The position numbers and the translations under genes are program-made. Source: Blepharisma japonicum (Eukaryota; Ciliophora; Heterotrichea; Heterotrichida; Blepharismidae). From it: DNA of 64,000 bases. The stretch is taken from NCBI GenBank assembly GCA_949751835.1, contig CATKHK010000018.1:186001-250000 (forward strand). Reading direction: 5' to 3'. Of the stretch, positions 30,043 through 59,604 are shown in pieces; the stretch's first letter is position 1; every line of letters begins with the position of its first letter. The notes beneath the pieces were generated by a model. It worked only from the letters and a program-made list of their open reading frames with translations, was not told the origin of the DNA and did no database searches.

Positions 30043-32229
30043 ATGCAATTCTCTATCATATTAATCCTTTCTGTTCTGCTCAAACTCGCATTAGGCTTCG
30101 AATATATTCGACTTTCAGATAGACTTTCTCTCGGGTTTGAATTCAACCTCACAAGTGTGCGATTCAGTTTTATTGTATTTTCTATATAGTGCGATGCTGG
30201 GTGATGCGGAATTGGGTTTGGTACCGATATGATTCACACTGATATGATAGTTGTAATGGCTAATAATAATGGTGAGCCGCCCACCAAAATGGACTTATTC
30301 TCAATAGAAGAGGCAACTCCTCCTACAGATGTGTCACTCGGCGGTCGAGACGACTTAGTTCTCGAAGATTGAAGCTACACAGAGACTGGATTTACTGCAG
30401 TTGTATCAAGACTTTTGACAACTGGCGATACTTTTGATAACATAATAATTCCTCATTCAGAGATGGACATGATCTGTGCAACCCAAAAAAAAAATAGTTG
30501 GACAAAGCATGATTTTAGCGGTAAATTTTAAGCAGTACATTATAAAATTAATTTAGATCCAACCAATATGTGGCTTGAGCTTGTTGCTGAGGACACTAAG
30601 ACCAGCAAAATATTTCATAGGTGCTTGATGCTTATATTATGGACTTATGCAGTGCCTATTGGTATTGCTTTTGCACGGTATTTTAAGTGGCTTGGCCACG
30701 TGTGGATTGTTGGACATTTGATTTGCACAGTTCCAGCAATCTGAATGACATGGTGGAATTCAAGCAAAAAATACAAAGAAACCAAGCCTACAATGCCTAT
30801 TATCAATAATTATGATCGATGCCATGATATGCTAGGGCTTGTTCTTTTGTCATTATTGATGGCAGAAGGTCTATTAGGAATATTTTCCATTATCACAAAA
30901 TGGTATGGAAAAAATGCTTATTTTATATCATATACACGTAAATTACATCAATTTATTGGCTGGACGTTATATATAGCAGGAATTTTAAATAATGGTATTT
31001 ATGACTTACAGCTAATCTATGACTACTCTCATCAAATGGATCTTGTTTTCATGTTTTTCATCGTTTTCCTGCTCGTATTGCTTGAGTCAAGGCATCGCCT
31101 TAGTCCATTTTTGCCTTTTATGAGTTTTTTCATCAAGAAAAAACAATTAGAAACAAGCCATTTAAAAGTAATAGAAGATATTAATGAAAGTGGCAGAGAG
31201 TATGTATTTTTTGACGAAAGTGTCCTTGATATATCTACTTTTCAATACAGCCATCCAGGAGGTGCTACACTTTTCAAGAATATCAAAGGAGAGGATATAG
31301 GAAAATATTTAGTAGGATGTAGTAATAAAAATTTTCTGAATCCATATACACATTCACCCATAGCTATGAAAATTGTTGATTATTTATCAATTAATACCAT
31401 TCCTTATCCAGAAAATTTTTTAATCAATAAAAATAATTCAGATCAAAATAATATGATTTGAAGGATGGCTAAAAAGAGGAAAATCAGCCACAGGACATAT
31501 ATAATTACTTTTAAATCCAAAGAATATGAGCTTAATCCGGTATGAGAAAAAGCTGAATGGCTTGGAAAACATTTTAAGGCGTCAATTCAAGTTAAATCTT
31601 CATTAACAAATAAATATACAACCATATCAAGATATTATAGTTGCATTTTTGTAGATTTGGATAGCTGAAAACAAGAAGTTTCTGATGAAGGGAATGAAAT
31701 AACTGAATTAACCAGGAATGGGGTAAAAGGACTGAGTTTTATTATAAAAATCTATCCAGGGGGTATTATGACCGAATATTTAAAATCGCTTGCAAAAAAT
31801 GAAAAAATTGCTTTAAAAGGCCCTTTAGGGCCAGGGCTGTCAGTCGATAACTTATCAGGAGAATTTTTAGCAGTTGCAGGCGGAACAGGCTTAGTACCCT
31901 TTTTAGATTTAGTTCACTACTTTTGGGTAAATCGAAATAACCCTCATGAATTCAAGCTTACGCTTATCGTGTCTTTTCGCAGGAAAAAAGATGTTTTTGC
32001 ATATGATCTTATAAGTGCTACAGAAAGAGCTGTGGATTCAAGTATTTTTAAGTTCGTTTTGATTATAAGCAGTGAAAAAGAAAAGCCTTGCTTACGAGAA
32101 CTCTTGATTGAGAATGGAAAGCAAAAGCCGAAAAAAGCTTGGGTGTGTGGGCCATCAGGATTCAATAGTTTTGTAGCTGATGTATTGATGCAATCTGGGT
32201 TAGAAAGCCAAAACATCATAATTATGTAA
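30043..32229 (+). CDS. DOMON-cytochrome b561-cytochrome b5-reductase fusion
   Basis: 718 codons after removing 15-nt introns at 30175-30189 and 30521-30535, with TGA as Trp. A signal peptide (MQFSIILILSVLLKLALG) is followed by a DOMON domain (CDAGWCGIGFGTDMIH...). Next are about five membrane helices of a cytochrome b561-like unit with His in GHLICT, RCHDML and KLHQFIGW. A cytochrome b5 fold follows (DISTFQYSHPGGATLF, heme-binding HPGG), and last a ferredoxin-reductase-like FAD/NAD(P) module with KGPLGPGL, AVAGGTG and WVCGPSGF. Such a chain could carry electrons from cytosolic NAD(P)H across the membrane to a DOMON heme or external metal or ascorbate. The parts are well known, and this four-part order is related to the DOMON-b561 reductase (FRRS1/CYB561) families. 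Confidence 0.85.
30175..30189 (+). other. 15-nt intron, phase 0
   Basis: GTATTTTCTATATAG. Removal joins ...FSFI to CDAGWC; A at position 10; ends in an in-frame TAG if retained. Confidence 0.85.
30521..30535 (+). other. 15-nt intron, phase 1
   Basis: GTAAATTTTAAGCAG. Removal gives DFSGVHYKINLD; A at position 10; TAA in frame at positions 9-11 if retained. Confidence 0.85.
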
Positions 32230-32785
32230 ACATAAATAATTAGAGTTGAACTCTACCATTGTGACTTGCTCAGTGTAGAGGTATCATAAATTATTGTCCA
32301 TTAATATAACTTCATTAAATTGAAAAATTCTTATATATGATAGTTTAAAATTATAGAATATTTTTATTTTATTTACCTTAGTTAATATTCATATCTTAGT
32401 AACAAATTCCATACCATAGAAGATAAATTAGTTGCTTTCTTATTAATTGTTATATATTAATTTTTTAAGACTTCTTTCTGTTAATTCAATCATTTTTAAT
32501 CCTTGTAGCATCAGCATTTAATATGCTTACTCCTTTACCTATCTTTTTTATTGCGTGATTAATTGCTTATATAGATTTATTTTATACGCTTACATTTTAA
32601 AAGATTTACCTTCTTTAGTTAGTTTTACCTTATCTTTCTCTTTATTTATTACAATATAACTTAAACTAATCAATTTCTGTGCTTGGAATATATCTTTTAT
32701 AATTACAAAACGCTTTTGGAAATTATTTCTTTTCTTTAAAATGAAGTATATGGCAAAAAAAGCTATTAAATTCGTGATTTAAACA
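32230..32785. other. AT-rich convergent spacer
   Basis: Between the ends of the reductase fusion (+) and the Cys-rich gene (-). No gene or clear terminator structure seen. Confidence 0.5.
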
Positions 32786-33493
32786 TTAATCCGATTCAAT
32801 TTCAATACTTATATCCGAAATTGATTCGTCAGATTTAATCATAGGAGTTTGTGCAGGTATTTCTTCATCTTCTTTGACACTTTTTTCTTCTCCCTCTTGG
32901 TTATTGATTTGAATTTCAATTTGAGAGCATTCAGGATTTGCAGTAGCAGTAGGCGTAGAGTTTGATTTTTTGGTATCATGATTTGAATTCTTCTGACCTC
33001 CTGAACTTCCCATCTCATTAATGATTACAATATTGGAATTATAATTGCTATTGTAATTGTTGCCACCGTAGCTACCATAATAACCATTATCGTTGATATC
33101 TATGATAGCTATTCCAAAGCAAGTATATATATTAAGCCTATTACAGCATCTTACTAAAGAACGTGAAATCCCATGGCATGCTCAATCACATCATGTTGAA
33201 ACACCTGAAGTATTGTAATTTGCCTTTTGCACACAATTGGTGAAGAGTATTTGATCACACTCTGAGCACTTTTTAGAGAGATCGCACTTGCAATTACAAT
33301 CTGAGCATGTGCCACTTGCTGAGCTAGATGATAATAAGCAGCATGTTAACACTTTGCAGCAGCATGAGCCAATATGGGAAAATATAGTGCACGGCATAGA
33401 ATGGCAAATCGAGCAGCAGTCAGTTGCTATGCACTTACACAAGCTTTCATTGCAGCAGATCTGTAAGATTCCCTTTACAATATCTTCAGCCAT
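32786..33493 (-). CDS. Cysteine-rich protein, unknown family
   Basis: 235 codons with TGA as Trp, no intron. The first 130 residues hold many Cys in pairs and triples (ICCNESLCKCIATDCCSICH, GSCCCKVLTCCL, CSDCNCKCDLSKKCSECD), then WCDWACHG and RCCNR. A Gly/Asn/Tyr-rich linker follows, then a polar tail ending in Glu/Ser-rich sequence (SDESISDISIEIESD). There is no signal peptide, so disulphide use in secretion is unlikely. Zinc binding or multiple S-palmitoylation at a membrane are possible. I do not recognise the family. Confidence 0.65.
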
Positions 33494-33841
33494 TATATTT
33501 TATATATCCTATGAATTATGCTAATTTAAATATCAATACTTAAATTTTTTAGTGTTTATTTCGGTGCGTTGGCTTAAGCCTTTCATTATTAAAAGCCTAT
33601 CTAATTGTGTTTTATAACCTAACAAAATATAATTTTTAGCTTTATGATTTAATTTTGCTTAACTTTTTATAAAAATAGATGCATATAATAAGATATGATT
33701 AATCTATCTAATTTAGGTAGGAAATTTTTATAAAACAAAAAACCAATTTAATTTGCTTTATATTTATAACTGAAGATTGATTATAATTTTAGCTATAATG
33801 ATATTTTTTATGTGAAAGGTTTATAAATAAAGTAAATCCAT
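33494..33841. other. AT-rich spacer
   Basis: Separates two minus-strand genes. Nothing recognised. Confidence 0.5.
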
Positions 33842-36364
33842 TTATTCAAAATTATATCCAAATATCCCACAATAGCTCACTAAATTTGATAATTTTTGCC
33901 CAGTTGACTTGCATACTTTGCTCATTAAGCTAATTTCATTCAGTAATTTGTTTTCATAGGTAATTTTTAACACAGGATATACAACACAACAAGGCTTATG
34001 CTCAGGGCCTACAAATTTTTTATTTTCTGAATACCTTAATCGATCCGGAACTCTAACTAGCTCATCCACCAAATCTTGATGATTTAAGTCTTCAGGAATC
34101 TGATCATCTGCAATCGCAAAAATAATTTTCAAAGCATCAATGCAACCCAAAATTTCTGTCTTTTTATCATATAAGCCTCTATTCATATTAACAATGAAAA
34201 AAGATCTTCCCCTTTCAAAAAATCCTCTATTGAGTCAATTCTCGACTTCTTTATTAATGTCAATATTAGCTAGCTTGCGAGCAGAATTTAAAGTTATATT
34301 TTCAGCTGCGCGCTTAATTGCATCTTTGCGGTCATCTGGGTTTAGTCCTAGAACTTTTTTAATTTTTATCGCTTCAGCTTTTATATCGTTTCGTCTTTTA
34401 AGTCTAACAAGAGCATCTGCAGCCATACTTAAAGTTTCTCCTACCATAGGAATTAAAGTAATGGCCATTGCAAAAAGGTTCGTCTTATAATTTGCATCAT
34501 CGAGGCCTATATGTCCTCCAGCAATTGCATCAGCTTCAGTGAGTGCAGTATTCAATCTATCATATAAAGCTGAGAAATATTGCTTGAGATATGGTATATT
34601 TTCTATTTCAGGATTAGCTCTTAAGGCGTGTGAATGAATTTGGCTGGTATCAGCTTTATTTTTTAAGTCGTTCTCCAATTTTTCCTGACGCTCTTCCATC
34701 TGTTTTATCTTAATTGCCATCAATGTAATTACTTCGTTGGGATCTACTTTACCTGAGTTGATGCAACTTAATGCTTGAGAATATATAAATTCTTCTTCTT
34801 CCTTAATGTTTTCTTTTTCTTCTCGAATCCTATCTATAGCATCTGGGTTATCACCAGCTTCTTCTAGAAGTTTCCAGAGTTTTTGTTCTTGCTTAACAAT
34901 TTCTCGCTGAAAGTCTCCTAAATTTCTTATAAGCTGTTCTCGCTCAGGACCTAGAACTTCATTAATGTATTCTATATTATTTTTGTCTAGATCATTTCCC
35001 ATTTTCCCAGTTTTTGCTTGCTCAACAGCCTTATTAAGATCTTCTAAGGCTCTTTGTCTTTCACCAAGCTTGTTAAGCACTCTTCCTCTGTTACAAAGGT
35101 ATAAAACTGAATTAGGTTTAAGTCTAATAGCAGCGTCTGCACATTGTAAAGCTTCGTCATATTTTTCCATATTAAAAAGAAGTGCACCTTTTCTGTTATG
35201 TGCATTTGCATATGTTGGAGATTTAGCAAGAGCAGTATCGTAGCATTTTAATGCTTTTTTGAACTCACCTTGGCTGAAAAGAGCATATCCTTTATTATTA
35301 TAAGCCTCAATATAGTCTGAGTCAAACTTTAAAGCATAGTCGTAGCTCTGGATAGCATCTGCAACTCTACCTAGCTCGAAGAGAGTGTTTCCTTTATTAT
35401 TATATAAAAGTGGCGAATCTGAACATTTTTTAATCCCATCAATGTAGAATCCTAGCGCATCTTTATATCTTCCCAACCTATGAAGGACAAGGCCTATATT
35501 ATTATAAGCTGATGCATTATCTGGATTAGCTCTTATAGCTGCATTATAGCATTCTAACGCTTCTTCGAATTTTCCTTGGCTGTCGAGGATTGCGCCTTTA
35601 TTAGTATATGCTAAGGTATTTTTTGAATTTAATCTTATAGATAAATTATAAGACTCTAACGCTTCGTTAAGCAACCCCATTCTATTAAGAGCGTTTCCTT
35701 TATTATAATGTGCTGCCGAATCATTAGGTGAAATCCTAATTGCTGTATTAAAGCATGCCATTGCCTCATCATTTCTATTTAATTGGAAAAGGGTATTTCC
35801 TTTGTGAAAATATGCTTGAATATATCTCGGGTTTACAGTGATAGCAGCATCATAGCAAAGTAACGCTTCTTCTGGTCTCCCCATTCTCCTAAGAGCGTTT
35901 CCTTTGAAATAATAAGCAGGTGCATATCTAGAATTTATCCTAAGGGCAGTATCATAACATTCTATAGCTTTAGGGTACTGGCGTAACTTCGCGCAGGAAA
36001 TACCTTTATTATGGTGCGCAATGCAATCCGTAGGATTTTGGCTTAATGCCATCTCATAGCATTTAATAGCATCTTTATATTTACACATTTCAAATAAGGT
36101 TGCACCTTTATTTGTCCATGCATAAACATAGCCTGGGTTTATTTGAAGGCATGTTTCATAAGAATTGATGGCGTCTTTGAGTTTTCCTAATCTATGGAGC
36201 ACTAGCCCTTGGGAATAGAAAGCTTCGAAGCATTCTGGATTTACTTGTATGGCATTTGTATAGGCTTGCCAAGCGGCAGTTAAATTTCCTTGATCTAAAA
36301 ATGCATTTCCCTGAAGCCAGTATTGGTTAGCAGTGTATTGCTCTATGGTCATCTGACGCTGCAT
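33842..36364 (-). CDS. TPR protein with 13 repeats and C-terminal helical domain
   Basis: 840 codons with TGA as Trp, no intron. Thirteen consecutive 34-residue tetratricopeptide repeats occupy about residues 14-455. A typical unit is YAPAYYFKGNALRRMGRPEE, with Gly8, Ala20 and Pro32 kept in most. Residues 480-600 are charged and probably coiled coil (two Glu/Lys-rich helices). Then comes a region with a hydrophobic helix (FAMAITLIPMVGETLSMAAD) and a further 180-residue C-terminal part that ends IFGYNFE. It is probably a protein-interaction scaffold like the many ciliate TPR proteins; the partner is unknown. Repeats 5-8 are so regular that recent internal duplication is likely. Confidence 0.88.
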
Positions 36365-36755
36365 ATTTAAATTTATGATTAGATCTGCTTAAATGATTTG
36401 TAGGAAAAACTGGACAATACATATTAAATGCAACAACATAAAATTAATATTAATAAATTTAGTATTTTACTATTAAGTTGATATAAAATAAATCTTACTA
36501 AAGAACGATTATATGCTTAATTATTAAAAAATTATTGTAAATCTACAATTCATATTTTTGAAAAAAATACTTGAACAGCTCAAATTTGATTAATTTTCAA
36601 ACAATCCACTTTAATTTAAAGCATTTAAAAGAAACAGATTAATGTGGAAGAATAAATAGCTAAAATTCAAAACAAGAATTGATAATGAGAAATTAGAAGT
36701 TTAGGGACACTTAATAATATTAGTTTATTTGATTAAATACTCAAATAATTGTTAA
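36365..36755. other. AT-rich spacer
   Basis: Between two minus-strand genes; it should hold the promoter of the TPR gene. Nothing specific recognised. Confidence 0.5.
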
Positions 36756-37796
36756 TTATCTTCTTGGAGCCATGGGTGTCCAAGTTCTCCAATTAATAGG
36801 TGGTTGAGGTCTTGATCCTATAATTTCCTCAATTCTGCCCAGAATATCAGCTGTTAATTTTCCAACAATATTAACAGCTCCAATATTGTCTTCAACTTGA
36901 CTAGGCCTGGTAGCTCCAAATATTGCGCTGCTTACATCACTATTCTTAATGCATCAAGCAATTGCTAATTGTGCTTGTGTGCATTCTAACTCCTGACTGA
37001 TTCCTGCTAATCCTTCAAACAATCTCCTAGTTTTTTCTCTGTTTTCTGGCAAGAAAAAGCTCTGCATTAACTTTCTATTTCCTGGCGTCAAATTTGGGTC
37101 TAAAATTCTTGATCCTTCTGGGAAGTTTAAATCATTATATTTTCCTGAAAGAATTCCTCCCATTAGAGGATTGAATATTGTAGCACCCATTCCATAACCT
37201 TCATATAAAGGAACATAATCTACCTCAACCTTATTCCTGACAAACATATTATACTTCACTTGCTCTGTTACTGGATGTATAAACCCATACTTGTTACAAA
37301 TTTTATGAATTTCTTGGATTTCATATGCAGAAAACTCTGAAGTTCCCCAATAATCTGCTTTTCCTTTTTCAATTAAATGGTTAACTGTTCTAACAGTTTC
37401 TTCTATAGGAGTTTCATAATCAGGTTTATGCAAATACATCACATCAACAAACTCCAGCTGAAGCCTAGACAAGGACGCTTTCATACCTTGAATCAGCCTT
37501 TTTCTTGATAATCCAGTTTTTTTACCACAGTTAATAAATTTGGTCGCTATAACTAAATCATCACGATTTCAGTCACCTCGCTTTAAAATATTGCCGAAAA
37601 TAGATTCTGCTGTGCCATTTCCATACTGCTCTGCTGTGTCGAAAAAATTTATTCCTGAGTCAATTGCTTTTGAGAAGCATTGGAATTGAGACTCTTCAGC
37701 TTCTGGAGTATGTCCTGTAAGCCAGTTTCCAAATGAAAGAGCTGAAACTTTGAGACCTGAGTCTCCTAGATTGCGATAAATCATAGAGTCTTTCAT
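36756..37796 (-). CDS. Aldo-keto reductase (potassium-channel beta subunit-like group)
   Basis: 346 codons with TGA as Trp, normal family length, no intron. It starts MKDSMIYRNLGDSGLKVSAL, the usual first strand. The catalytic tetrad is visible: Asp53 and Tyr58 in FFDTAEQYGNG, Lys86 in VIATKF and His in VMYLHKPD. The NAD(P)-binding end is present (AIFGATRPSQVEDNI). The family reduces aldehydes and ketones with NADPH in the cytosol, and members closest to this pattern (GHTPEAE, MGGILSGKY) include the voltage-gated potassium-channel beta subunits. The TGA at 36957-36959 encodes the Trp in AIAWCIKN. Confidence 0.92.
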
Positions 37797-38281
37797 TTGG
37801 TGAATAATTATAATAAAATAATGAATAATGCCAGCTTATTTTAACTATTAAAATAAATGACAGGCAGAGCACATTATTCAAAATTAAGTAAATTGGCTGA
37901 TATTTCTAATGAAATTTGTTCAAATATTATTTGTTATGAAAATCCGTTTTTTATTATTAATTATTATACACATATATTAGAAAATCAAGCATTTTTCTTT
38001 TGATAATGTTCATGCCATTTAACTTATATTATTTCTTAAGAAAAATATTAAAAATTTAAGCAAAATCAATTTTTTAACCTGACTAAGATTATACATTATG
38101 TGCGAATTTGAGTACTCAAGATCAAATCTTCCAAAACTATATTAGATGGAGATTTTTTCATATTAAAAAATCTAAATACCACTACCATAAAATAAATATT
38201 GGACAAAATAATTAAAAGTTAATAATATGTCAGATAAAAAGGCATTTATTTTCTTTTACATCAGAAATTTAAATATTAAAA
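37797..38281. other. Divergent intergenic region
   Basis: Shared upstream region of the aldo-keto reductase (-) and the unknown gene at 38282 (+). AT-rich; no motif I can defend. Confidence 0.5.
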
Positions 38282-39040
38282 ATGAATTCAAGATACAGAC
38301 ACATGACTTTAAATATTGAATGTAGCAATTGTCTAGCAGATTCAATATTCACTCCACTAGACATTGCAGACTCCGCTATGCTTAAATCACCCCCAAACAC
38401 TCCATTTTTAGATCTTTATGAAAAACTTAGTAAAGAATTTCACTCTTCAGGTGTCAGTCACCTTCGTCAATTTCTCTTGAAAAAACTTGTAAATGATTCC
38501 TACTTGTCTAAACATTGGCCTTATAAGAAAGTTTATTCTTTATTGAACTCAATTGCCCATGTGATGCTTTTTAATGAGTTAGAAATCATCTATTGAGGCA
38601 TATTGATTAATTCTACATCACCTGAAGAAAGAACAATAAGTCCGAGAATGCTATCAATATTTACAGCTTATCTGGCAAAAATGAGTATGAACGAAGATAA
38701 TGAACCTTTTGAGCAGTTTATGAATATGAAATTTCCGAAATTTAGGCTGAGTTTTAATAATTGACTTCTAATTACAAGCTGCTCAGCAGAACCAAACTTA
38801 AAAGAACTTAATAAAAAATACAACCAGCTTATATATTATTCGAAGAAAAAAAAAGAGAAAAAAGATTATACTGAAATGGTTGAATCTCTGATGAAATGCC
38901 CAGGGAAAAAAGAAGCCATTTCTTCAGAAAATGCAAGTGAAATATCTAGTGTAGAAGATCTTGATGAAGAAATAGAAGCAGTTCAGCAAGATTTTCTAAT
39001 AGAAGAAAAGCTGTCACCTTTAGATATTGATGTCAGGTAA
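38282..39040 (+). CDS. Unknown protein, 252 residues
   Basis: Open with TGA as Trp from ATG 38282 (MNSRYRHMTLNIECSNCLAD) to TAA 39038. The middle, about residues 45-170, is a helical region with an even mix of hydrophobic and basic residues (HLRQFLLKKLVNDSYLSKHW, LLNSIAHVMLFNELEIIYWG) that may be a folded domain of cyclin-box or helical-bundle kind, but no signature is convincing. The C-terminus is Lys-rich then acidic. No signal peptide. I do not recognise the family. Confidence 0.7.
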
Positions 39041-39290
39041 ATCATAATTTAAAAATAATCATTTCAAAGCTATTGATAACATTAAGAATCTTTGTAGTTA
39101 AAATAAAATCTTAAAAACAGAATAAATAAATTAAAATATTTTAATGAAATAATTTGCTATATGCATAAAATTTTAAAATAATTATTTTTATATGATTTCT
39201 TGTAAATAGCGGTGTACGACATTATGTTGGATTTATCCTGAGTTTTTTTTTGCAAAAATAAACAGAATTGATAAGAAAATATACTTTATC

Positions 39291-39574
39291 ATGACAGCAA
39301 ATGGATTTTTTACAAGACTGTGAAGTATTCGAGGTGAAAATTCTAAAAATAGGGTTTTTTTGGTAGGTTGTCTTGAATGAAATATATGCAAGTAGGCATT
39401 ACATTGATAATCAAAATTTCAATTATAAGTAATTGCACTGGAAAATCTGGATTGGAAGTTATTTTTGTTGCAGTTGCTTTTGTTTTTATTGATATTAATA
39501 CTATTTATAGTAGTATTGCTGATGGTAAAAATGCTAATTCAATTATGAAGAGAGGCGAAGCCTTGCACAAGTAG
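39291..39574 (+). pseudogene. Possible remnant of an ARF/ARL-type small GTPase
   Basis: From ATG 39291 with TGA as Trp the frame reads MTANGFFTRLWSIRGENSKN then RVFLVG, which looks like the N-terminus of ARF-family GTPases up to the strand before the P-loop. The P-loop itself is absent and the frame closes at TAG. In a second frame NCTGKSGLE recalls the C-terminal SAK-like motif of the family. At least the G domain core is missing, so it could only be a decayed fragment. The match is short and could be chance. Confidence 0.25.
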
Positions 39575-39601
39575 TAGTAAAATAAATATACCAAATCATA
39601 C

Positions 39602-39727: not shown

Positions 39728-39800
39728 GATGTAGATTTAAAATATTAATCTTTTAGTTAAAAATAAAATTATTAGAATAAAGATATCTTCTTAAATTAAT

Positions 39801-42717: not shown

Positions 42718-42748
42718 TAATTTGAAAATAATTTAAATTTTAATTACA

Positions 42749-45347: not shown

Positions 45348-46466
45348 TTAACATAACGAAAGAATAAAGTCCGCATATATTGAGCAATGGCTAGATGCCC
45401 ATGTTTTTTTACTCAATGCTCTTCCAACGACCTCACAATTAAGTGGCTCTTCAAGATTTCTATAATAGATCCTATCAAATCTATTATGTGGACTTCAGCT
45501 TGGATAAGTGAAGCCATTTCCATCATTTTCCTTCGTTTTTCAGGCATCTTTTAGTGTACTGCGCTGCTGCTTTATATGGTATTTCCCTTCTAGCACATCT
45601 CCAGGCACCTGATACTTTTCCTTGATTTTGAAATCCCCTAGCAATATCTGAGGAATCCTCCCTTTATCACTTCTATCCATAAATCCTAGGATTTCCGAAG
45701 CTTGCATTACTTGACGCTTATTATCAGTAGTCATTTGAGTATTAAAAACTTCGAATTGTTTTTTTGGATGAGTTATAAGGGCTCTTACACAGTACCTTTC
45801 ATTTGAATCTTCCTTTGAGGATGAAAGTTTTATTGAAGTTACATCAGAAATTGGATATCTTGAAATAACGGCAATTCCTTCTATTCTTCCATCCTTGTAA
45901 ACCATCGAATCATGCCAATAATAATAGGGATACTCAGGCATTCCATCTAATATTTCTTTAAGCATGTTTCTTCCTTTGGGCTTGTCAAATAAAATGCTTT
46001 CAGTAAGCCACCTAAAAGTTCTCTCAAATAGACAGTGTCCATGATAAGGGTCATTTTTTATGTCTTGCAGACATAAGATATCAGGGTTTATTTTTTTGAT
46101 TTGTTGGACGATCATATGTCTTCGCTTATCTCAGTCAGGATCATCATCAAATTTTGTTATATTATAAGTTTGTGTTCTTAATATACAAGGGGTCCCTATA
46201 TAATATTTACCTGGCTCATTAACATAAATAAGCGGGCAAACAGCTCGAAGAACATAGGTAGTTAGTGAAATATCATCCTTTATATGAATTCAGTTATTAC
46301 CGAAGGGAACCAGTAATTCAAAGGTAGGGTCGTCATCATCAATGAATTTGGCAATAGAGCTGAATAGGAATTACTGATAGAGAGACTCATAGCTGCATGA
46401 CCGAAAATTATAGATGACATAGGTTCTTGACTCTAATAAAATCTTCAAAGGTGACTGGCACTCCAT
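45348..46466 (-). CDS. Exonuclease-endonuclease-phosphatase fold protein with altered active site
   Basis: 367 codons with TGA as Trp after removing a 15-nt intron at 46360-46374. The family fold is clear: RTQTYNITKF, then INPDILCLQDI, GIAVISRYPI, QILLGDFKIK, SPHNRFDRIYY and the final ASSHCSIYADF. In active members these blocks read LQE, GDFN and SDH. Here the Glu is Asp, the Asn is Lys and the Asp before His is Ser, so metal binding and catalysis are probably weak or lost. Relatives include CCR4-type deadenylases, nocturnin and sphingomyelinases. The start ATG 46466 (MECQSPLKILLESRTYVIYN) is the first in the exon. No signal peptide. Confidence 0.8.
46360..46374 (-). other. 15-nt intron, phase 2
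   Basis: GTAATTCCTATTCAG on the minus strand. Removal joins YESLYH to SIAKF; A at position 10; TAA in frame at positions 2-4 if retained. Confidence 0.8.
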
Positions 46467-46990: not shown

Positions 46991-47566
46991 ATGAATAATA
47001 AATCCAAAGGATGCTGCTCATGCTTTAAAGCTATGTTTAGCAGCAAACCAAAGTCGTAATTCCAATTCAGCACCAAAAACAATAAATCTGATAATATCGC
47101 AGCAGTTAAAAGTCCTCAAAAAACACAGCCCACTGAAGAAGCTTCAAATAAATCTCCTGAAGCAAAAGAAAAAAGAAATCTTAAAGCAAATCCAGAGCTT
47201 GGGAAAAACAATAAAAAAGCTAAAACAGGACGACTAATAGCAAATGCAGAGACATTTCCATTAGATGAATCTTCAATATCTCTCCGTATATCAAATGATA
47301 TTAGCATTTCTAATGATGTTCTATTTTATGATAAAAATTCAATTAGTAATCAAAGTTTTGACCCAGAGCAAATCAGATGCAACCTTGATGCCGCTTTTCA
47401 CATCATGCAAGACGCTTTGAATACTTCATTTATAAATTCCAATTGTCTAGATAGTGATGGCAAAGAGCCTTTTACAAAAGTTGTGAAAAATATAAACTTT
47501 AGAGAGCTATTGAAAGAGGAAGGGATCAGTATTTCAAAAGATAGCAATAATGAAAAAGATAGCTAA
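46991..47566 (+). CDS. Small Lys/Ser-rich protein with Cys cluster at the N-terminus
   Basis: 186 codons after removal of a 15-nt intron at 47056-47070. It begins MNNKSKGCCSCFKAMF, where three Cys next to basic and aromatic residues suggest S-palmitoylation and peripheral membrane binding. The middle is Lys/Glu/Ser-rich and disordered. The C-terminal 70 residues contain a possible helix (CNLDAAFHIMQDALNTSFIN) and end acidic. No known domain. The intron differs from that of the EEP gene by a single base (GTAATTCCAATTCAG), a good sign that both are real. Confidence 0.7.
47056..47070 (+). other. 15-nt intron, phase 2
   Basis: GTAATTCCAATTCAG. Removal joins SKPKS to TKNNK; A at position 10; TAA in frame at positions 2-4 if retained. 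Confidence 0.85.
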
Positions 47567-49974: not shown

Positions 49975-50002
49975 AGTAATTGGATATTTAATATTCTTAT
50001 AA

Positions 50003-51211: not shown

Positions 51212-51269
51212 TTAATAAATTATATTTGCCTCCATATATAAAATTGCATAGTTTAAAATAATAAATATA

Positions 51270-52937
51270 ATGCAATCAAGCGGAGTAAGCTTCGATGAAG
51301 TATTTTTAAATTAGGCATTTAAATTAGTAGGTGGACATGGGAGCTTTCAATTGAAATCCAGCATAGGGCTGTGACTGAGTTTATTACATGGCTTTATTTT
51401 ACTTTTCGGCTTTCAATATAGTTTGACTATCCCTAGTCTTATATGCAAAGATAAAGCAGGTCTCGAAACTTGTAGCGAAGAAACAGCGTGCAGGGTTGAA
51501 GAGTTCATTTTCGATCCTCACGAAATAAAAAGTGCGGTTTCCGAATGGTAATTATAAATCAGGACACTTATGTGTGGAATGAAGTATCATATCTTTATTT
51601 TGATTGGAATTGTTGGCATAGGATTCGCTATAGGGATTTTAGTATTAGGAAAACTTGCTGAGTTATATGGAAGAAAAAAATCATTATTTTTTGGGATCAT
51701 TCACTCTGCTTCTACTGGATTTGTGCTCATTTGTTCTCGAACTCCATGATTCTTTTCAACAATTATGTTTTTTTGCAGCTTGTCGCTTCCTGCTTCAATT
51801 ATTATTCCATATGTGTGGATTTTTGAACTCACAGACAAGCCTTTTAGACCAATTTTTTATTTACTAAATACAGTTTTCGTAACTATAGCATTTGCTATTG
51901 CTTATACTGCTTCTAATTATTTCTTATCCTGAAGAGCTTCGGTTATAGCGTCAGTTATTTTTGGGCTAATCGCAATTTTCCCATTACGGTCCTTAAAAGA
52001 ATCCCCAAGATTTTTAGCCTGCAACCTTGGAAGATATTCCAAAGCAAGAAAAATTCTGAAATTTATATCTGAAGTTAACAAAAAAGAAAGTTTTCAAGAA
52101 AAATTAGAAGGGGAAGCTTTTAATGAGTATGAAAAAGCAGGTAAAATATCAACTCATGTGTCAGACCAGCCATCTGGAGCGACTGCTGTGCTGGCACTAG
52201 ATGAGAGCACATTAGAAAAAGAAAAGCATGAGGATAAAGGAATTCATATAGGATTTAAGTATGTGTTTTTCACAAGAAGGCTTAGGAAAATGCTATTTAA
52301 ATGCAGTTTTTCATGGCTACTTATCGGTTTTGAATTAGGAATCATTATTAGTCAATCCAAGTATTTCATAAATTATTCTTTATTCGAGCTCACAATCAGT
52401 TGCATCTTGTGCCTCTTATTATCCACACAAGCTGCTATATTTGGCAATAAAATTGGAGCTCGACGATCTACGATGATTGCATCTGCGTTTTTCATCATAG
52501 CAAGTGCAATTCCTTTATTGACCTATATTGACTCCCCTATGCTAAAAGCAATATCAAGCTATGGATTTATAATTGCGTTTCCCACAATATTTAGTGTAAT
52601 TACATTTCTGTTCATTATAACTCAAGAATCATTCCCAACATACGGTAGATGTTTGGCTTCATTTCTTTGCTTATTTTTTATGATATGCTCATTTGCAATT
52701 GGATACTCTGTTCAATACTTGGATATACCTCAAAATATTATCCTTTGTGTGATAAGTTTTATTTTAATCCCTTCAATTTGTCTTTATCACCCAGACTCTC
52801 TATATGAAGAAAATTTCGACGGAGCTGCTGACACATCAAGTATCGAAATAACAGTCCAAGCCACAAAGAAACCGCCAAGCCACCAGAAATCAAACTCATC
52901 AAGCTTCCAAGTAATGAGTGAAGAGTTAAGCACTTAA
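51270..52937 (+). CDS. MFS transporter, organic cation/anion (SLC22-like)
   Basis: 545 codons with TGA as Trp after removing 15-nt introns at 51300-51314 and 51548-51562. The start FDEAFKLVGGHGSFQLK matches the SLC22 N-terminus. The first helix is followed by a lumenal loop with four Cys. Loop 2-3 has GKLAELYGRKKSLFFG, the MFS signature (G-x-L-A-D-x-x-G-R-K). LRSLKESPRFLACNLGRYSK is the equivalent of the SLC22 PESPRWL motif. The central loop is long and charged. About 12 helices in total. The tail is Ser-rich. It probably moves an organic ion across the plasma membrane; the substrate is unknown. Confidence 0.88.
51300..51314 (+). other. 15-nt intron, phase 0
   Basis: GTATTTTTAAATTAG. Removal gives SFDEAFKLVGGHG; A at position 10; terminal TAG in frame if retained. 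Confidence 0.85.
51548..51562 (+). other. 15-nt intron, phase 2
   Basis: GTAATTATAAATCAG. Removal gives VSEWTLMCG; A at position 10; TAA in frame at positions 2-4 if retained. Confidence 0.85.
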
Positions 52938-52955
52938 AGCATTATAATAAATCTA

Positions 52956-54098
52956 ATGTTTAAAATAAAAAATCTTATGAGAAATGGCTTGTTATATTGC
53001 GAAGTATTAAACGCTGACTATAAAATTTCTTTACAAAACTCTGCGATTACTGGACAGGTTTCTGAGCTAAATGATAGGTTTTCGAAGAGCATGGTATTGT
53101 CACTTACAAATAAAGGGAAGATTATTAGCCCAAGAGTACCAAAAATGAGTACAGAAAATAGGCTGCCTTATTTGGTTGTCCAAGCTTTTATTCCGAAAGG
53201 AAAACCGTTTATGCTTGAAATTGACGTAACTGACCATATGGCTGCTAAAAAGAAGCTGACTTTTATACAGTGCAATGAAATAATTAAAAGCTATAATTCA
53301 GCAAAAATTCCTTCAAATGCGATTGTAAAGGACATGTGGAATAATATTTGTATAGATATTCCAGCGTTTCTTAATGAATGCTTTAGGGTAAAATTAGACC
53401 ATATTGATAAAGTAACAGTTCATGCATTTTGCAGAATTCGGCGTATTTTTTCTATCAAATTTCCCCTTAAAAGCACAAGCCAAAGTATGGAAACACAGCT
53501 AAGACATGATATTCTTCCTACTGGAGTGGATATGCCAGAATCAGTCCCTTTTATCTGCCAATACATTCATCCTCAACAAATTAACCCTAAAGATGAAGAA
53601 ATAACAGAAGAAGACCAAAGCCCCAAAGAAGAAACTTTTGTCACAGATCAAAATCATGGCTTCCGATCCCCAAAATTAAAGTCAAAGTATGTAGTCCCAG
53701 GAACGAAGATGTATGATAAAATTAATAAAGCTCAGTTAGGTCCAAAACTGTATAGACAATGTAAGATATAAATAGATGCAATTGAAAAGCAGCTACTTTA
53801 TGCATCTTCAACTCAAGCTCTCAATGATTTAGAAATGGAACTATTGTCACCTAGTAAATCAATGCCAGATTTTAAGGTAAAATCTGATATAAGAAAGAAA
53901 ATTCCTATACTTTCAGAATCGCAATCAAATAACTCTTGAAATCATGAAGTCAAGTCAAAAAGCCCGACGTTTTATGATTCACTGATAGCAAGTTTAAATG
54001 AAGTCAGGCATGAAACCCCACCATTTGTGAACTCAGGGCCCAGGACTTATGTTTATGATCCTTTGAGTCATAGATATACAACTATGAGAATATCATAG
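52956..54098 (+). CDS. CFAP20-domain protein
   Basis: 375 codons with TGA as Trp after removing a 15-nt intron at 53761-53775. Residues 1-180 form a CFAP20/DUF667 domain (FKIKNLMRNGLLYCEVLNAD, PYLVVQAFIPKGKPFMLEID, NICIDIPAFLNECF, KVTVHAFCRIRRIFSIK). This domain sits on axonemal doublet inner junctions in CFAP20 and in WDR90 and CFAP20DC. The rest is disordered and polar, like CFAP20DC. It starts only 18 nt after the MFS stop codon. A role in cilia or centrioles is likely. Confidence 0.88.
53761..53775 (+). other. 15-nt intron, phase 1
   Basis: GTAAGATATAAATAG. Removal gives YRQYAIEKQLL; A at position 10; TAA in frame at positions 9-11 if retained. Confidence 0.8.
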
Positions 54099-54506
54099 AG
54101 ATAAGTGTGAAAAATAGATAATTAATAAAATTAGAAATTTGGATAAATATAGAGGGTTAAAGATTTTGCTCTTATCTTATAAAAGCTTTAAAGAAAATTA
54201 TTTCATTAAAAGAGTCGAAGAAAAATGTTCAAATAATTATAATTCACCATGCGAATTATAAGAGGATGTTAAGAATTTTCTATGCTTTTAATTTGATAAT
54301 TTGAATACTCAGCTTTAATTGAATAGCGTCAGTTGAAATTAAATATAAAAATTAATTCAGAAAATTAAAACTCTATAAATCTAAATAGATATTACTGTAT
54401 TTCTCTCATCAAGCTAAATAATCAGTTAAGAAAACAATAACTAAAATTTTCCTTTATCTATTCTAAAATGTCACATTAAGTTCTATTTATAGGTGAACAA
54501 ATAAAT
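54099..54506. other. AT-rich spacer
   Basis: Likely promoter of the Cys-rich secreted protein gene. Nothing specific recognised. Confidence 0.5.
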
Positions 54507-56579
54507 ATGATATACTTTCTTCTTGCTCTGACAGTTGTCTCTGCATTAACCTGTCCAAAGTATTCTTGCCACCAAGGAGGCTTCGATTTAGGCGAAACAT
54601 GCGCCTATCAAACTAAAACTGGCGACGTAAAGATGCAAATCTGTGAAGCTTCGGCACTCTCTCCAACTTGTAATGTGAATCCATCGATCACGAAGAATTT
54701 TACATGTGGAGCTCGCCCTCAAATGACTCTAGAAAACCAACTCCCAGGCCAGTTCTGCTATTTAGGCACTCAATGTTTATCAGGGAATTGTTTAAATAAT
54801 AAATGTGCTGGGCTTCCTCTTGGATCTTTATGCCAAAATCACGAGCAATGCAATGTAGGGCTGTATTGCAGTGCTTCTGGAAAATGCTATGCTCAAGCAT
54901 CTCAATTCAATTTTTGCAATTCCGATTATGATTGTCAAAATCAATATGCTTGCAATCGCACTTTATATAACTCTGGAACATGCATACCATATTACAGCAT
55001 CCCTAATGGAGATGGAATTGGAATGTGCGTCACTGGATTTTCAGAAGGCCAATCAAATTTATGTCAAAGTGGAGCTTGCACCCAAATCAACCCTAATCAT
55101 AATGGAGAAGGCGTTTGTGTGCCTGCCTTCAAGAGCGACAAGCCATATCCTTTATCTTGCAATGCCGATGATGATTGCACTGCTCACAACAGCGCTGGAA
55201 CAGGAGCTATAGGAACATGCAACTGTGGAATGGATAAAAATGGGCTGGCTTATTGCAATGCCTGGACAGGGGATCCTCCAGCAGTGACCGCAAGAGCATT
55301 AATCTCTCAGCATATATCACAAGCAGGCATTGTAAACTGCCATACAATGCTCAGATTTAGTAAATATTGTTACCAGCAAACATTAATACCATCCCAAGTT
55401 GTGAATTTAACCCAAAATCTATTACTAGCAGGCGATACCCCAAGATATCAAGGAAATGACTACTGCACCCAAACCATTTATAACGCTGACTACTGGAGAG
55501 TTTCTGCCTCAGATTTCACCTGCAAAGCATATGGCTGCAGAAGCGATTTGCAGTGAAACTTTGACAGCTGTATGACCTATCTCGAAGGATCTAATGAATT
55601 TGCCATAAAAACCTGTCCAAAAGGTGACTATTGCAATTTTGTCCAAATTCAAGCTAATCAATGGAACAATGTCACTTGTACAGTTTCTCCTACCCCAGCT
55701 CCTTTATACCCTGGAAACCTCTGCACTTCAGGCTCTCAATGCATTTCAGGAACTTGTCTTCAAGGAAAATGCAAAGGCACATTTTTAGGCAATCCATGTC
55801 ATGACAGCAGTGAATGCGCAGTTGGGTCTTACTGTTATTCAGTCAACTTACAATTTATTTGTGTTCCTTTAATTCCTATTGACTCTGACCAATGCGGCAC
55901 AGAGTACGATTGTGTCCCTCAAGCTGGATGTAATGCAACAAGGAATAATTTCCCAGGAACCTGTGTTAAATATTTCTCAGCACCTCTTGGAGCTATTGTG
56001 CCATGCCCTATAAGTGGATGGAATAACTTATGCCAAAGTGGAACTTGTTATAATAATGGAATTGATGATAGAGGGACCTGCGTTCAAGCTCCAGTGACCT
56101 TGCCAACGTTCCCAGCTACATGCACTACAAGTTCTCAATGCATTGGCTACAATTCGAATTTGAACCAACAATTTGTGGGATCTTGCCAGTGTGGTTATAA
56201 TGGAGACGCTCAAAAATACTGTTCACCTTTCCCTGGAGATGAGCCTGGTATTAAGTATATTAAACAGATTGCAGCTATTATGACATCAGATGCTATGAGT
56301 TTGTGCCAGACAACAAGAAGATACTATTCAGATTGCTTAGACATGGTTGCTAGTGCTCTAGGCTTGGACTCTGATAACTATTATTCAGCCATGATGAATT
56401 TCACTAACTTTGTTTCTTACATTAACAATGATCAATGTGTTCAGGCTGTTATCAACAACGACTATTGGAGCAGAATCCCTGATAATCCTAATCCACCTCC
56501 ACCTACACCGCCTCACAACAATACTGACTCAGCAGGCATTTTAACCCTCAGCTTAGCACTATTAACTTTTATTAACTAA
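54507..56579 (+). CDS. Secreted two-repeat cysteine-rich surface protein, probably GPI-anchored
   Basis: 690 codons, one TGA (Trp) between the two halves, no intron. A signal peptide (MIYFLLALTVVSALT) is followed by two homologous halves, about residues 16-345 and 350-655. Equivalent blocks are QFCYLGTQCLSGNCLNNKC and NLCTSGSQCISGTCLQGKC, which look like Dickkopf-type Cys-rich knots; CNCGMDKNGLAYCNAWTGDP and CQCGYNGDAQKYCSPFPGDE; and QTIYNADYWR and QAVINNDYWS. After a Pro-rich linker the protein ends in a hydrophobic stretch (SAGILTLSLALLTFIN), the form of a GPI signal. Base composition is more GC-rich than the neighbours, which suggests high expression. The family appears common in heterotrichs; function unknown. 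Confidence 0.85.
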
Positions 56580-56749
56580 ATTTCGGTTAATTAATATACT
56601 CTGCCAGTATGTTTAAAACTCCAAATGGCTTATTTAGAGAAAAAATATTCCAAAATAAGGAATACTTATATGAAATTATAATATTGAAAGATTTTCCTTA
56701 TTTCTAAAATAAAAATGATAAAACTTCATTAGAACGTAGCAAAAATCCT

Positions 56750-57523
56750 ATGAAGAGAAATTATAATTTAACGCCCACAAACTTTGCAAGATCAGACACA
56801 TGTCCTCCATTAGCTACACCAAGGCATGCGTGCTCGCCAGAAGTTACTAGAAATATCATTAAGTTGTCGAAGGTCGTTTATAACAACAAGCACCCAGTAT
56901 CAAAAATCAAATTATTAGAAAAACAAGCCATCCGAGGAGAATTTGAGCCTAATTTATCAGTTTCTCCAAAGCAAAAACAGGCTTTTTCTTTTAAACTTAG
57001 TCCGAGACTTGCAAGAAGTCCGATGAAGAATCTTGATTTGCCTAATTTTCCCAAACTTCCTTTTGGCAAACACTCAAGTTGTAACACTGACCAAGAGCTT
57101 TCCTTTGAAAAAGTAAAAGTTTCAAAAACCCCAAGGCCTGATTTCAACAATAAATTTTCCTTTGGGCATGACCAAAAAAGTCCATCATCAAAATTCTTAA
57201 ATTTAAACTCGTCAAACTACCAAGTTTATGACACAAAAGCAGGGGTATTGGTATGCTTAAAAGAAAAAGAAGTAATAAATACATATGAAAAAGAAAAAAA
57301 TAAGTGAGCAGCCATGCTGAAAATGTATCAGACTTTTAGAGACATTGAAGAAGAAAAGAGGTGGAGAAAAAAAATTAAAGAAGTGCTAAACCGAGGCAAA
57401 AAATTCGAAGTGCAAGGATATACACCGCAGATTTTTACAGAAGAAGATCTGGAGTCAGAAGAAACCGGGGACAACACAAAAAATGTTGCAAGACATCTGA
57501 AATTTTTAGAGAACGAATTATAA
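56750..57523 (+). CDS. Basic disordered protein, unknown
   Basis: 257 codons with one TGA (Trp at 57305-57307), no intron. It is Lys/Ser/Pro-rich with SP motifs (NLSVSPKQKQAFSFKLSPRL; SKTPRPDFNNKFSFGHDQKS). The C-terminal third is a charged helix (YQTFRDIEEEKRWRKKIKEV) followed by an acidic end. No known domain. It might be a microtubule- or cortex-associated protein, by composition only. Confidence 0.65.
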
Positions 57524-57653
57524 GTTATTTACGTATTTTAAAAGTATCCTAAATTATGATTTATGTTTATGATTAAAATAGTTCTATCTTATCCGATAAA
57601 TAATTTTTTGATCAAAATTTTATTTTAATTGAATTTAAAGTTAATTAAAGCGA

Positions 57654-58490
57654 TTAATTATTCATAACCCCTGGGTCAGGTAGAAGCTTGACTGAAGATG
57701 ATATATAATGCTCTTTGCTCACCTTCTTATACTTGGGATTATGAGGCACAAAGAATTCATGATAAGAAGACTGATTTGCTAAAGTAGTCCCAGAAATCCA
57801 GCTTATCAGGTGTTTATTTGCTCTATTCATATTGTCTTTAATATCCTTTGCTGATATTGTATTTCTTCCTACATCTTCGCTAATACTTTTACGTTTCTCT
57901 ATTGGTGGAAGTGTTGTGGTTTTTCTTGTTAGTTTGACTGTGGATACAGGATAATGCAATTTCATTGAATGTTTTGGTTCAGGAGTTTTTCAGTCATAGC
58001 TTTCTTTTTGGATAGAAATTGGAATATATCGTTGAATCTTGGCCACAGAGTGGAAACCTCTGAGAGCATCCAGCATTAGATGCTTGAAATCTTCTTTATC
58101 ATTTAAAGACAGCCAATGCTCAATAAATCACAGTGGCGTTGGCTTTAAAACTGTTGCATAAGGAAGAGTTGACAATTTGCTATATTTAAAAATATCATTA
58201 AAACTGCTAACTTTCGAAGTTAAATTTCCAAATTCCATTGAATAAGAACTTCTCATAGCATTTCTCATTGCTTCAGTAGCTTGTGGGATTTCATTTACAG
58301 AGGGCATTTTGGAGTTTCTGAATTTTTTTTGTCCATGATGCTTAGTTATTGCTCGAATAATCTTTAGACCTTTAAGTTCATTTTTGGTTGCGTTGCGTAA
58401 TCATATATCGATTAAGTCGTGATATTCTTCTTTGAAAATATCGCGTGCTGTCTGATAATTTTTGTCTTTAGATAAGGCAGAGTCTGACAT
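57654..58490 (-). CDS. Unknown protein, 278 residues
   Basis: Open with TGA as Trp from ATG 58490 (MSDSALSKDKNYQTARDIFK) to TAA 57654, no intron. The N-terminal half is helical with a possible fold (YHDLIDIWLRNATKNELKGL, KIIRAITKHHGQKKFRNSK, EHWLSLNDKEDFKHLMLDAL). The second half is basic and disordered, ending YISSSVKLLPDPGVMNN. FKHLMLDALRGFHS recalls ciliary proteins of unknown function, but I cannot place it. It converges with the gene at 56750, 130 bp apart. Confidence 0.65.
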
Positions 58491-59016
58491 TTCTTTAATT
58501 ATCAACTTTTTTATTTTCAGGGATTTTGGAATAATATAAAGGAATTGATAGGAAAATGATAATTTGAAAAAAAAATTATTAGCTATTTTGTTCCTTAAGC
58601 TATAAGTGAGAAAAAATAGGCATTACTCCAAAAATAAATATAATGTAAAAATTAATATGTGTGTCCTAATTAAAATCTTTTATTATTGCTAGTTTAAATG
58701 GCTAATTTAAATTCATAAAAGATATATCTCTCATAATAGAGCTATGGTGCTTAAATATGGCTTTGGAGAATAATTTCAAAAGCTGCTTAAGCCCATAGTA
58801 AGGCTAAAGAGAATTTGCTAGCCATATGAAATTGATAAATTGTTGTGGATAAATTAAGTATATGGAAAAATGATTAAGCTCTTTTTATTTATCAGCTTGG
58901 AGAAGGTTTATTTATAAGTTTTTTCAGAATAAGATATAAAATCTAGTTGATTAATAAACTCAGCTTAAAATAAGCTTATTAAACTTAAGAAATCTCAAGA
59001 TTATAAATAAACTTTC
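58491..59016. other. AT-rich spacer
   Basis: More than 500 bp between two minus-strand genes, nothing recognised. Confidence 0.5.
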
Positions 59017-59604
59017 TTACATACTAAAGTACTCTTGAGTATATAAATAGAATTCCGAATTATCTGCAGTTGAATTATCCGTTGACACACGTTTTTTACA
59101 CACTGGGCATGAAGGCTTCGTCTCAATTCAAGCATCAACACATTCCGAGTGAAATTTATGAGGGCAGCCCAGCGCAGTTATAATTTGTCCTTTAGTAATG
59201 TCATTCATACAAATAGAGCAAAAGCTCTCTTCTTCAGCTTCTATGTGGGGTAATCTGCTGGATATATCGATGGTCTCTAAGGTATAATCAATGCTTCTTA
59301 ATGTTGCCTCGTGAAGTTGTTCGATATACTGATCTACAGCGCTCTGAATTGCAACATCTAAAATCCTAAACCGCTCCTCTTCAAAATAAACTCGTCTTGC
59401 TTGAAAATAAATCCTGAGGAGAACTAAAAAAACTGTTGTAGAAATTCATCCAACCAACAAAAAAGTTTGAGAAATCAAACCAGCAAAAAAGAGTTTGAAA
59501 AAAATAAGTGCTATTATCAAACAGCAAAGCTAGTTAAGGCTTACTAAAAAATACTTAGTTGATAAGCAATATACGAAATACTTTAGTTTTGCCATCCATC
59601 CCAT
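59017..59604 (-). CDS. Membrane RING-H2 ubiquitin ligase
   Basis: 190 codons with TGA as Trp after removing a 15-nt intron at 59530-59544. Residues 20-70 hold two hydrophobic helices (LCCLIIALIFFKLFFAGLI; VGWISTTVFLVLLRIYF). A charged helix follows, and residues 125-170 are a RING-H2 finger: CSICMNDITKGQ, then CPHKFHSECVDAWIETKPSC and PVCKK, with all eight Cys/His ligands in order. A membrane E3 ligase of the ER, endosome or plasma membrane is likely. The start at 59604 is preceded by an in-frame TAA. Confidence 0.88.
59530..59544 (-). other. 15-nt intron, phase 0
   Basis: GTAAGCCTTAACTAG on the minus strand. Removal joins TKYFL to LCCLII; A at position 10; terminal TAG in frame if retained. 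Confidence 0.85.

Follow-up and report, generated by a model that had tools for sequence, protein, structure and literature searches.

Why should introns of 15 nt, whose retention would leave the reading frame unshifted, carry stop codons that match their own phase? The question is raised by a window of 64,000 nucleotides of the Blepharisma japonicum genome (contig CATKHK010000018.1, positions 186,001 to 250,000), in which UGA is a sense codon and the stops are TAA and TAG. We consider it likely that the intron sequences found in each phase are those left by selection against translatable introns, with nonsense-mediated decay (NMD) of unspliced mRNA as its presumed agent.

The introns of the window

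A sequence-only reading had described eight 15-nt introns in six genes, all of them carrying a stop. The sequence bears out each of the eight, with the phases and stop routes assigned to them:

30175-30189, plus strand: intron, 15 nt, phase 0, GTATTTTCTATATAG, TAG stop at 13-15
30521-30535, plus strand: intron, 15 nt, phase 1, GTAAATTTTAAGCAG, TAA stop at 9-11
46360-46374, minus strand: intron, 15 nt, phase 2, GTAATTCCTATTCAG, TAA stop at 2-4
47056-47070, plus strand: intron, 15 nt, phase 2, GTAATTCCAATTCAG, TAA stop at 2-4
51300-51314, plus strand: intron, 15 nt, phase 0, GTATTTTTAAATTAG, TAG stop at 13-15
51548-51562, plus strand: intron, 15 nt, phase 2, GTAATTATAAATCAG, TAA stops at 2-4 and 8-10
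53761-53775, plus strand: intron, 15 nt, phase 1, GTAAGATATAAATAG, TAA stop at 9-11
59530-59544, minus strand: intron, 15 nt, phase 0, GTAAGCCTTAACTAG, TAG stop at 13-15

All eight are bounded by GT...AG and have A at position 10. The intron at 30175-30189 lies in the part of its gene that encodes, after splicing, a DOMON domain, those at 51300-51314 and 51548-51562 share one MFS/sugar transporter gene, and the genes with the introns at 46360-46374 and 53761-53775 encode an Exo_endo_phos and a CFA20 domain, respectively. The last intron of the list sits in a short RING-finger gene (59017-59604) that the gene finder did not model; it was therefore not called and was checked by hand, the other seven being recovered independently. 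An Rfam search of the window gave no match.

As a full list, however, the eight do not stand, since a neighbour without a stop had been missed:

46196-46210, minus strand: probable intron called by the gene finder, 15 nt, phase 1, GTAAATATTATATAG, without in-frame stop

It shares its gene with the intron at 46360-46374, and a paralogue on C34 has, as judged from printed coordinates only, a 15-mer of intron consensus at the same offset. Because a stop-less 15-nt intron keeps the frame open and so escapes the eye, the score of eight out of eight is partly built in.

Stop-less 15-nt introns exist in this genome. Excision of such introns outside the window improved the best Pfam score in nine of ten tested (by less than 2 bits in two of the nine), and in PDB alignments a gap of five residues lies on or beside three of them; domain continuity thus supports the view that the stop-less introns tested are removed from the mRNA. 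These excision tests, together with phase sampling, lead us to reject the notion of a stop in each 15-nt intron without exception. Nor are the stop-less ones rare, a point against the selection reading: among introns of strong consensus an estimated 15-20% belong to them, or 5% if totals alone are used.

Depletion of stop-less introns

If introns are noticed through the stop that breaks a frame, is there anything left to explain? It could be argued that detection bias and the consensus alone produce the pattern. The consensus GTAATTTTTATTTAG, rich in GTAA, TA and TAG, contains a stop when read in phase 0 or phase 2 and none in phase 1, and the share of introns with a stop expected by chance alone is about 0.43 for phase 0, 0.27 for phase 1 and 0.69 for phase 2. 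That the stop-less neighbour was indeed overlooked and that real stop-less introns occur agrees with such a bias.

A gene finder was run on a sample of 264 kb. It permitted intron lengths of 15 and 16 nt only, with start values that favoured 15, and its starting model required GT and AG and favoured GTA and A at position 10. Within these limits 64 introns were called, 59 of 15 nt and five of 16 nt. Before counting we removed phase-0 stop introns followed by fewer than 40 codons, as well as stop introns whose gene model was shorter than 60 codons (in the comparison of own and wrong frames, any intron of so short a model). Among the distrusted calls, 21787-21801 and 23537-23551 are GT...TAG at the probable true ends of two related genes, and 54381-54395 belongs to a model of 10 codons; 20331-20345 was kept despite a doubtful gene start. 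The stop-less call C1:294033 was dropped too, its excision lowering an aspartyl-protease score from 83.0 to 77.5 bits. This left 52 of the 59 15-nt introns, all with GT...AG and A at position 10, features that the starting model required and favoured, respectively. A stop lies in the own frame of 44 of the 52; reading the same introns in both wrong frames gives 104 cases, 49 of them with a stop. These raw counts include the detection bias. The phases of the called introns (0:1:2 = 35:9:15) are not to be taken as true phase use, since the corrected weights of the strong-consensus class differ (0.38:0.26:0.36, or 0.34:0.36:0.30 with open-frame calls).

Were intron sequence to ignore phase, the 44 kept stop-bearing introns of the 264 kb would imply 57 or, with another choice of letter frequencies, 44 hidden stop-less ones, whereas the numbers estimated by a mixture fit are 4.4 and 5.7, respectively, about one tenth of what detection bias predicts. 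Genome-wide counts and sampled phases of strong-consensus introns were combined in an eight-class fit. The sampled phases are those of classes other than the four that have A at position 11, and phase calls were absent for 15 (Viterbi) or 13 (open frames) of the 70 sampled sites. This fit gives a relative survival of stop-less introns of s = 0.27 (95% CI 0.12-0.61, likelihood-ratio p = 0.005). Paralogous copies reduce the independence of the counts; with neighbouring copies collapsed s is 0.29 (p = 0.009), and with open-frame phase calls it is 0.14. Equal survival (s = 1) was rejected under four of four settings and in five re-runs. The fit did not tell selection factors particular to each phase apart from a single shared one. 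In a comparison that bears on the strength of their splice signals, stop-less introns look less depleted at strong consensus (0.14-0.29) than overall (0.08-0.13), in samples that are not directly comparable. Furthermore, GTATWTTTTATWCAG, which is stop-free in every phase, occurs at 10 sites as against 101 for its TAG twin, the GTAA counterparts of the pair numbering 80 and 302 (Fisher p = 0.003). Stop-less introns of 3n length are thus rarer than expected, occurring across these estimates at roughly 0.1-0.3 of the frequency that phase-independent intron sequence would give. The corrected class fits and the mixture fit together reject detection bias as the sole source of the pattern, and we regard this account as unlikely.

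Phase and splice letters

Donor GTAA doubles as a stop for phase 2 and acceptor TAG for phase 0, while phase 1 would need the letters around the branch A, that is, TAA at 9-11. GTAT...TAG introns are mostly in phase 0 (0:1:2 = 10:1:2 by Viterbi, 16:0:1 by open frames) and both GTAA classes lean towards phase 2 (4:3:9 and 3:4:8 by open frames). By Viterbi, TAG-ended and CAG-ended introns in GTAA context have the identical split of 5:3:9, which counts in favour of detection bias and consensus and which leaves the arm "terminal TAG goes with phase 0", taken alone, undemonstrated in that context. By arithmetic on few sites, position 4 seems short of T in phases 1 and 2 alike, although in phase 1 this letter affects no stop.

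The phase dependence might also reflect splice-site context rather than stops, the codon position of the last exon base varying with phase and position 4 compensating in U1 pairing. Such an account would cover the apparent scarcity of T4 in phase 1, for which a pure stop account has no need, but within a phase introns with and without A4 do not clearly differ in their last exon base (52 introns, small numbers), and both the scarcity of the GTAT...CAG class and that of hidden CAG-ended phase-0 introns are left unexplained, so that we find it improbable as well. That introns arose from sources already holding TAA or TAG at fixed places is very improbable, as each phase class would need a separate source with its own stop place and two paralogue pairs suggest, from coordinates only, conserved positions with diverged intron letters.

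The proposed tie between sequence and phase is accordingly partly supported: it holds in the bias-corrected tests but is not universal, given introns that are stop-free in every phase. Many stop-less 15-nt introns together with equal motif frequencies across phases had been named as evidence against it; the former are found, yet motif frequencies differ between phase classes. The in-frame stop is a tendency above chance with real exceptions, which fits selection.

How selection may act

The introns would be ultra-short spliceosomal introns of heterotrich type, with GT...AG and A at position 10. As most are 15 nt long, a retained intron leaves the frame unshifted, and an in-frame TAA or TAG within the 15 nt is for that reason a route to harmless retention; stop-less introns, translated if retained, would be selected against. 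The cause of the depletion would then be selection and its agent probably UPF1-dependent decay. Judged by UPF1, the sole factor searched for, the genome appears to encode NMD machinery, two loci matching UPF1_Zn_bind above cut-off (206 and 134 bits, E 6e-60 and 1e-37). The same pressure is reported for other ciliates in PMC5014332, PMC2633312, PMC11334263 and PMC5663052.

More tentatively, and with less conviction, we suggest that the consensus may be a two-frame stop cassette, GTAA serving phase 2 and TAG phase 0, with phase 1 exposed and its introns culled or pushed to TAA on the branch A. Such a consensus cannot serve phase 1, and the need for safe failure might shape both the phase distribution and the splice signals of heterotrichs.

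Relation to known systems

For Paramecium, Jaillon et al. reportedly described in 2008 that translatable 3n introns are selected against. This is also described in PMC11334263 and PMC5663052, according to which retained stop-less 3n introns are invisible to NMD. Paramecium resembles our case in that 3n introns without in-frame stop are depleted while some persist, but differs in that it responds chiefly by having fewer introns of 3n length. No such shortage is seen in our sample, 15 nt dominating with 59 of 64 called introns (only 15 and 16 allowed, 15 favoured at the start); as length gives little escape, the letters carry the load. The pressure is the same, the route different. In Nyctotherus only three of 40 introns without in-frame stop are 3n, and short 3n introns are stop-enriched in Paramecium, Tetrahymena, Oxytricha and Stylonychia and slightly in Ichthyophthirius, the 22-44 bp class of Tetrahymena showing an opposite trend for which the source paper considers annotation error possible (PMC2633312, PMC5014332). 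The short introns of Nyctotherus and these other ciliates are at least 21 nt long and of many lengths, in contrast to the near-fixed 15 nt here.

Yarrowia lipolytica, too, draws stops from its splice letters in a phase-specific way: the donor GTGAGT/GTAAGT serves in phase 2, the acceptor TAG serves 3n introns in phase 0 and a branch-site TAA serves certain combinations of size and phase (PMC2911113); its introns differ in being longer and of many lengths, with TGA as a stop and no near-fixed 15-nt grid. In their GT...AG ends and A at position 10 the introns of the window match the Stentor/Blepharisma type, which is described as 15 and 16 nt long with GT-AG and, in Stentor, a branch A at position 10 in 8005 introns (90.9%; PMC9505925, PMC9942806, PMC11441545), about 95% of heterotrich introns being of 15 bp (PMC11441545). 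In the passages of these three papers used for comparison, in-frame stops by phase are not treated; the supplement 'Tiny spliceosomal introns' of PMC9942806 may already cover part of the pattern.

The principle of the stop within the intron is therefore already known from Paramecium and Nyctotherus, and phase-specific routes from Yarrowia; new here is a genome in which escape through intron length is all but closed. Most eukaryotes can respond in the length as well as in the letters of their introns, whereas here the length hardly departs from one multiple of three, which makes the effect readable at single positions, phase by phase, and so provides a natural test of how strongly cells guard against translating unspliced mRNA. 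For annotation, callers that seek only broken frames would silently translate stop-less introns as five extra residues. Among the 16-nt introns called, three of five (a sample of five only) are without in-frame stop.

Detection of 15-nt introns

All eight 15-nt introns described by the sequence-only reading are confirmed: in each, in six genes between 30175 and 59544, the sequence, the phase and the route to a stop in its own phase are as claimed. The genome comprises 45.2 Mb in 224 contigs and the window has a G+C content of 31%. Reading frames were translated with UGA as tryptophan: gene models built on 264 kb (the window plus G000:C1:100001-300000, 200 kb of contig 1) contain 69,010 codons, 333 of them TGA in sense positions, and end in TAA (144) or TAG (30). 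The 41-Mb genome of Blepharisma stoltei is reported to contain mainly 15- and 16-bp introns (PMC9942806), the proportion of 15-bp introns in heterotrichs is put at about 95% (PMC11441545), and Stentor introns are described as having their branch A at position 10 (PMC9505925).

A 15-nt intron keeps the reading frame, and if it lacks a stop the open frame continues across it. Sequence without RNA data will therefore tend to reveal only stop-bearing introns, and thus a score of eight out of eight could be obtained regardless of the true state. A Viterbi gene finder with a codon-pair coding model, admitting introns in any phase on both strands, was run on the 264 kb; it independently recovered seven of the eight introns and called 59 introns of 15 nt and five of 16 nt, only these lengths being permitted and the start values favouring 15 nt. 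Nine of the 59 lack an in-frame stop. Raw counts, uncorrected for detection, give own-frame stops in 44 of the 52 introns retained and stops in 49 of their 104 wrong-frame readings. The five 16-nt introns (G000:C1:107913, 133122, 153127, 175895 and 292491), a very small sample, lack an internal in-frame stop in three cases, as would be expected if a frameshift made a stop unnecessary.

Introns without an in-frame stop

One of the nine stop-less calls was missed by the sequence-only reading:

46196-46210, minus strand, probable intron, phase 1, stop-less, called by the gene finder

It shares its gene with intron 46360-46374, and this gene has five further full-length matches in the genome, 44-48% identical. 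By printed coordinates only, the paralogue on contig C34 carries GTAATTTTTATACAG 256 nt into the match, which is the offset of 46196-46210, and that on contig C17 carries GTATTTTTTAATTAG at 92 nt, the offset of 46360-46374. On this coordinate evidence 46196-46210 is probably, if not provably, a true stop-less intron.

Protein evidence supports stop-less 15-nt introns as real. Ten stop-less candidates, including cases in phases 0, 1 and 2, were scored against Pfam both with the 15 nt in place and after their excision, and the score of the best-scoring family rose on removal in nine.

Pfam scores of stop-less candidates (15 nt kept, then removed)
Mitochondrial carrier (two introns, one gene): 167.5, 179.3 and 184.7, 196.4
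Cation_ATPase_N (family spanning the junction): 37.9, 47.6
GTP_EFTU (EF-G-like protein): 149.9, 154.9
HEAT_2 (gain weak by itself): 33.7, 35.5
Ank_2: 89.9, 101.9
Kelch: 144.8, 153.6
FYVE: 23.4, 31.0
Notch (gain weak by itself): 85.3, 86.7

The first mitochondrial carrier intron interrupts PMDVIKQR. In the ATPase gene E1-E2_ATPase, which does not span the junction, was unchanged at 55.8. Secondary families sometimes moved in the opposite direction (Ank_3 and Ank_5 by at most 0.6 bits, NANM by 3 bits). In PDB alignments of the unspliced reading a five-residue gap falls on or beside the intron in PP2A-A, a CDPK and a Ca-ATPase, and that of the EF-G-like protein started within the insert. The tenth candidate, in an aspartyl protease, fell from 83.0 to 77.5 on removal and was taken as a false call.

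Dependence of intron sequence on phase

The whole genome was searched with eight versions of GTA[A/T]WTTTTA[A/T]W[T/C]AG, in which each of the three varied letters sets the presence of a stop in one phase; reversed patterns served as controls.

Genome-wide sites of the pattern classes (reversed control in brackets)
GTAA-T11-TAG: 302 (12)
GTAA-T11-CAG: 80 (4)
GTAT-T11-TAG: 101 (14)
GTAT-T11-CAG: 10 (4)
GTAA-A11-TAG: 26 (9)
GTAA-A11-CAG: 13 (1)
GTAT-A11-TAG: 17 (5)
GTAT-A11-CAG: 6 (3)

Under a codon-chain model, the coding sequence as a whole should contain no more than about 1.6 sense matches to any one class. The class that is stop-less in every phase (10 sites) has eight sites in sense within called genes against 1.0 expected from this model, with phases 0:1:2 of 3:1:4. 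Samples were the first 20 sites listed per class, four inside the contig-1 block being skipped for GTAA...TAG. The gene finder called 17 of 20 for GTAA...CAG, 8 of these 17 in phases giving no stop, 17 of 20 for GTAA...TAG (3 stop-less) and 13 of 20 for GTAT...TAG (2 stop-less).

After a T run at positions 6-9, A11 is rare (62 sites against 493 with T11), a stronger bias than in the full set of called introns (27% A, 56% T); the letter following the branch A may depend on the T run.

Strong-consensus class counts and phases were fitted by a model that left phase weights and letter frequencies free and had a single factor s, the relative survival of stop-less introns, which is 1 if sequence ignores phase. 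The fit gave s = 0.27 (95% interval 0.12-0.61), and s = 1 was rejected at p = 0.005 (likelihood ratio 7.9). When all eight classes were used s was 0.23; the two values became 0.28 and 0.21 when the reversed-pattern counts were taken as background, and with neighbours within 10 kb collapsed s was 0.29 (p = 0.009), collapsing being done by eye on printed sites and scaled up for the 302- and 101-site classes (100 each printed). Phases from open frames gave 0.14, and class totals without phases 0.07. Viterbi and open-frame phases agreed at 45 of 46 sites called by both; uncalled sites were excluded (15 of 70 and 13 of 70, respectively). In a second test, on the 264 kb, letter frequencies at each position were estimated from those phases alone where the usual stop does not include it. 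By these frequencies the chance of a stop is about 0.43 in phase 0, 0.27 in phase 1 and 0.69 in phase 2. Beside 44 kept stop-bearing introns, 57 hidden ones would be expected (44 if the called stop-less introns are included), whereas a mixture model fitted to the intron-like 15-mers of coding sequence, with codon-shuffled genes for comparison, found 4.4 (or 5.7). Both tests point to a depletion of stop-less introns of about three- to tenfold. Intron-like stop-less 15-mers with log-odds of at least 0 number 68 in the coding sequence of the 264 kb against about 88 in codon-shuffled genes, a hint that cryptic introns may be avoided.

The proposal that intron sequence is tied to reading phase is therefore partly supported: the depletion stands, but terminal TAG is not tied to phase 0 in the GTAA comparison, since at the sampled sites TAG- and CAG-ended introns have the identical phase split of 5:3:9. 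Moreover, class counts combined with sampled phases, few sites as these are, show T4 to be scarce not just in phase 2 but also in phase 1, where it affects no stop. An effect of donor context could therefore shape the letter at position 4, although the last exon base, in a small sample, gives no clear sign of it.

Possible origin of the depletion

The consensus GTAATTTTTATTTAG provides TAG in phase 0 and TAA in phase 2 and is stop-less in phase 1, where a stop chiefly requires the branch A to be preceded by T and followed by A or G. A further phase-2 route lies at the exon-intron junction, exon TA followed by intron G (sampled sites L050 and L071, and C1:262933). Should splicing fail, a stop within the intron would terminate translation and mark the message for decay, while five residues would be added to the protein if there is none. 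We infer that selection through decay may cause the depletion, since a deficit of NMD-invisible introns is reported for Paramecium (PMC5663052). Two loci encode UPF1 zinc-binding domains:

G000:C32:96935-97393, 206 bits
G000:C54:277779-278231, 134 bits, the more divergent of the two

In Paramecium, Nyctotherus, Tetrahymena, Oxytricha and Stylonychia, stop-less 3n introns are reported to be depleted or short 3n introns to be enriched in stops (PMC11334263, PMC2633312, PMC5014332), and for Yarrowia it was described in 2010 that letters of the donor, branch and acceptor serve as stops according to phase (PMC2911113). Among the matches listed in the open-access literature, none dealt with phase-wise in-frame stops in heterotrich 15-nt introns. 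Different from these other systems, intron length here is nearly fixed; a known pressure appears in an unusual setting, with an effect that is measurable yet incomplete.

Other genes in the window

Two similar large genes lie in tandem at 6369-10595 and 11753-15967 (1409 and 1405 codons), both starting MIHKELG, and a partial frame at 3-632 is related to them. A further tandem set occupies 20305-25049, its members having FKCF..NCPNDPEHICKC in common.
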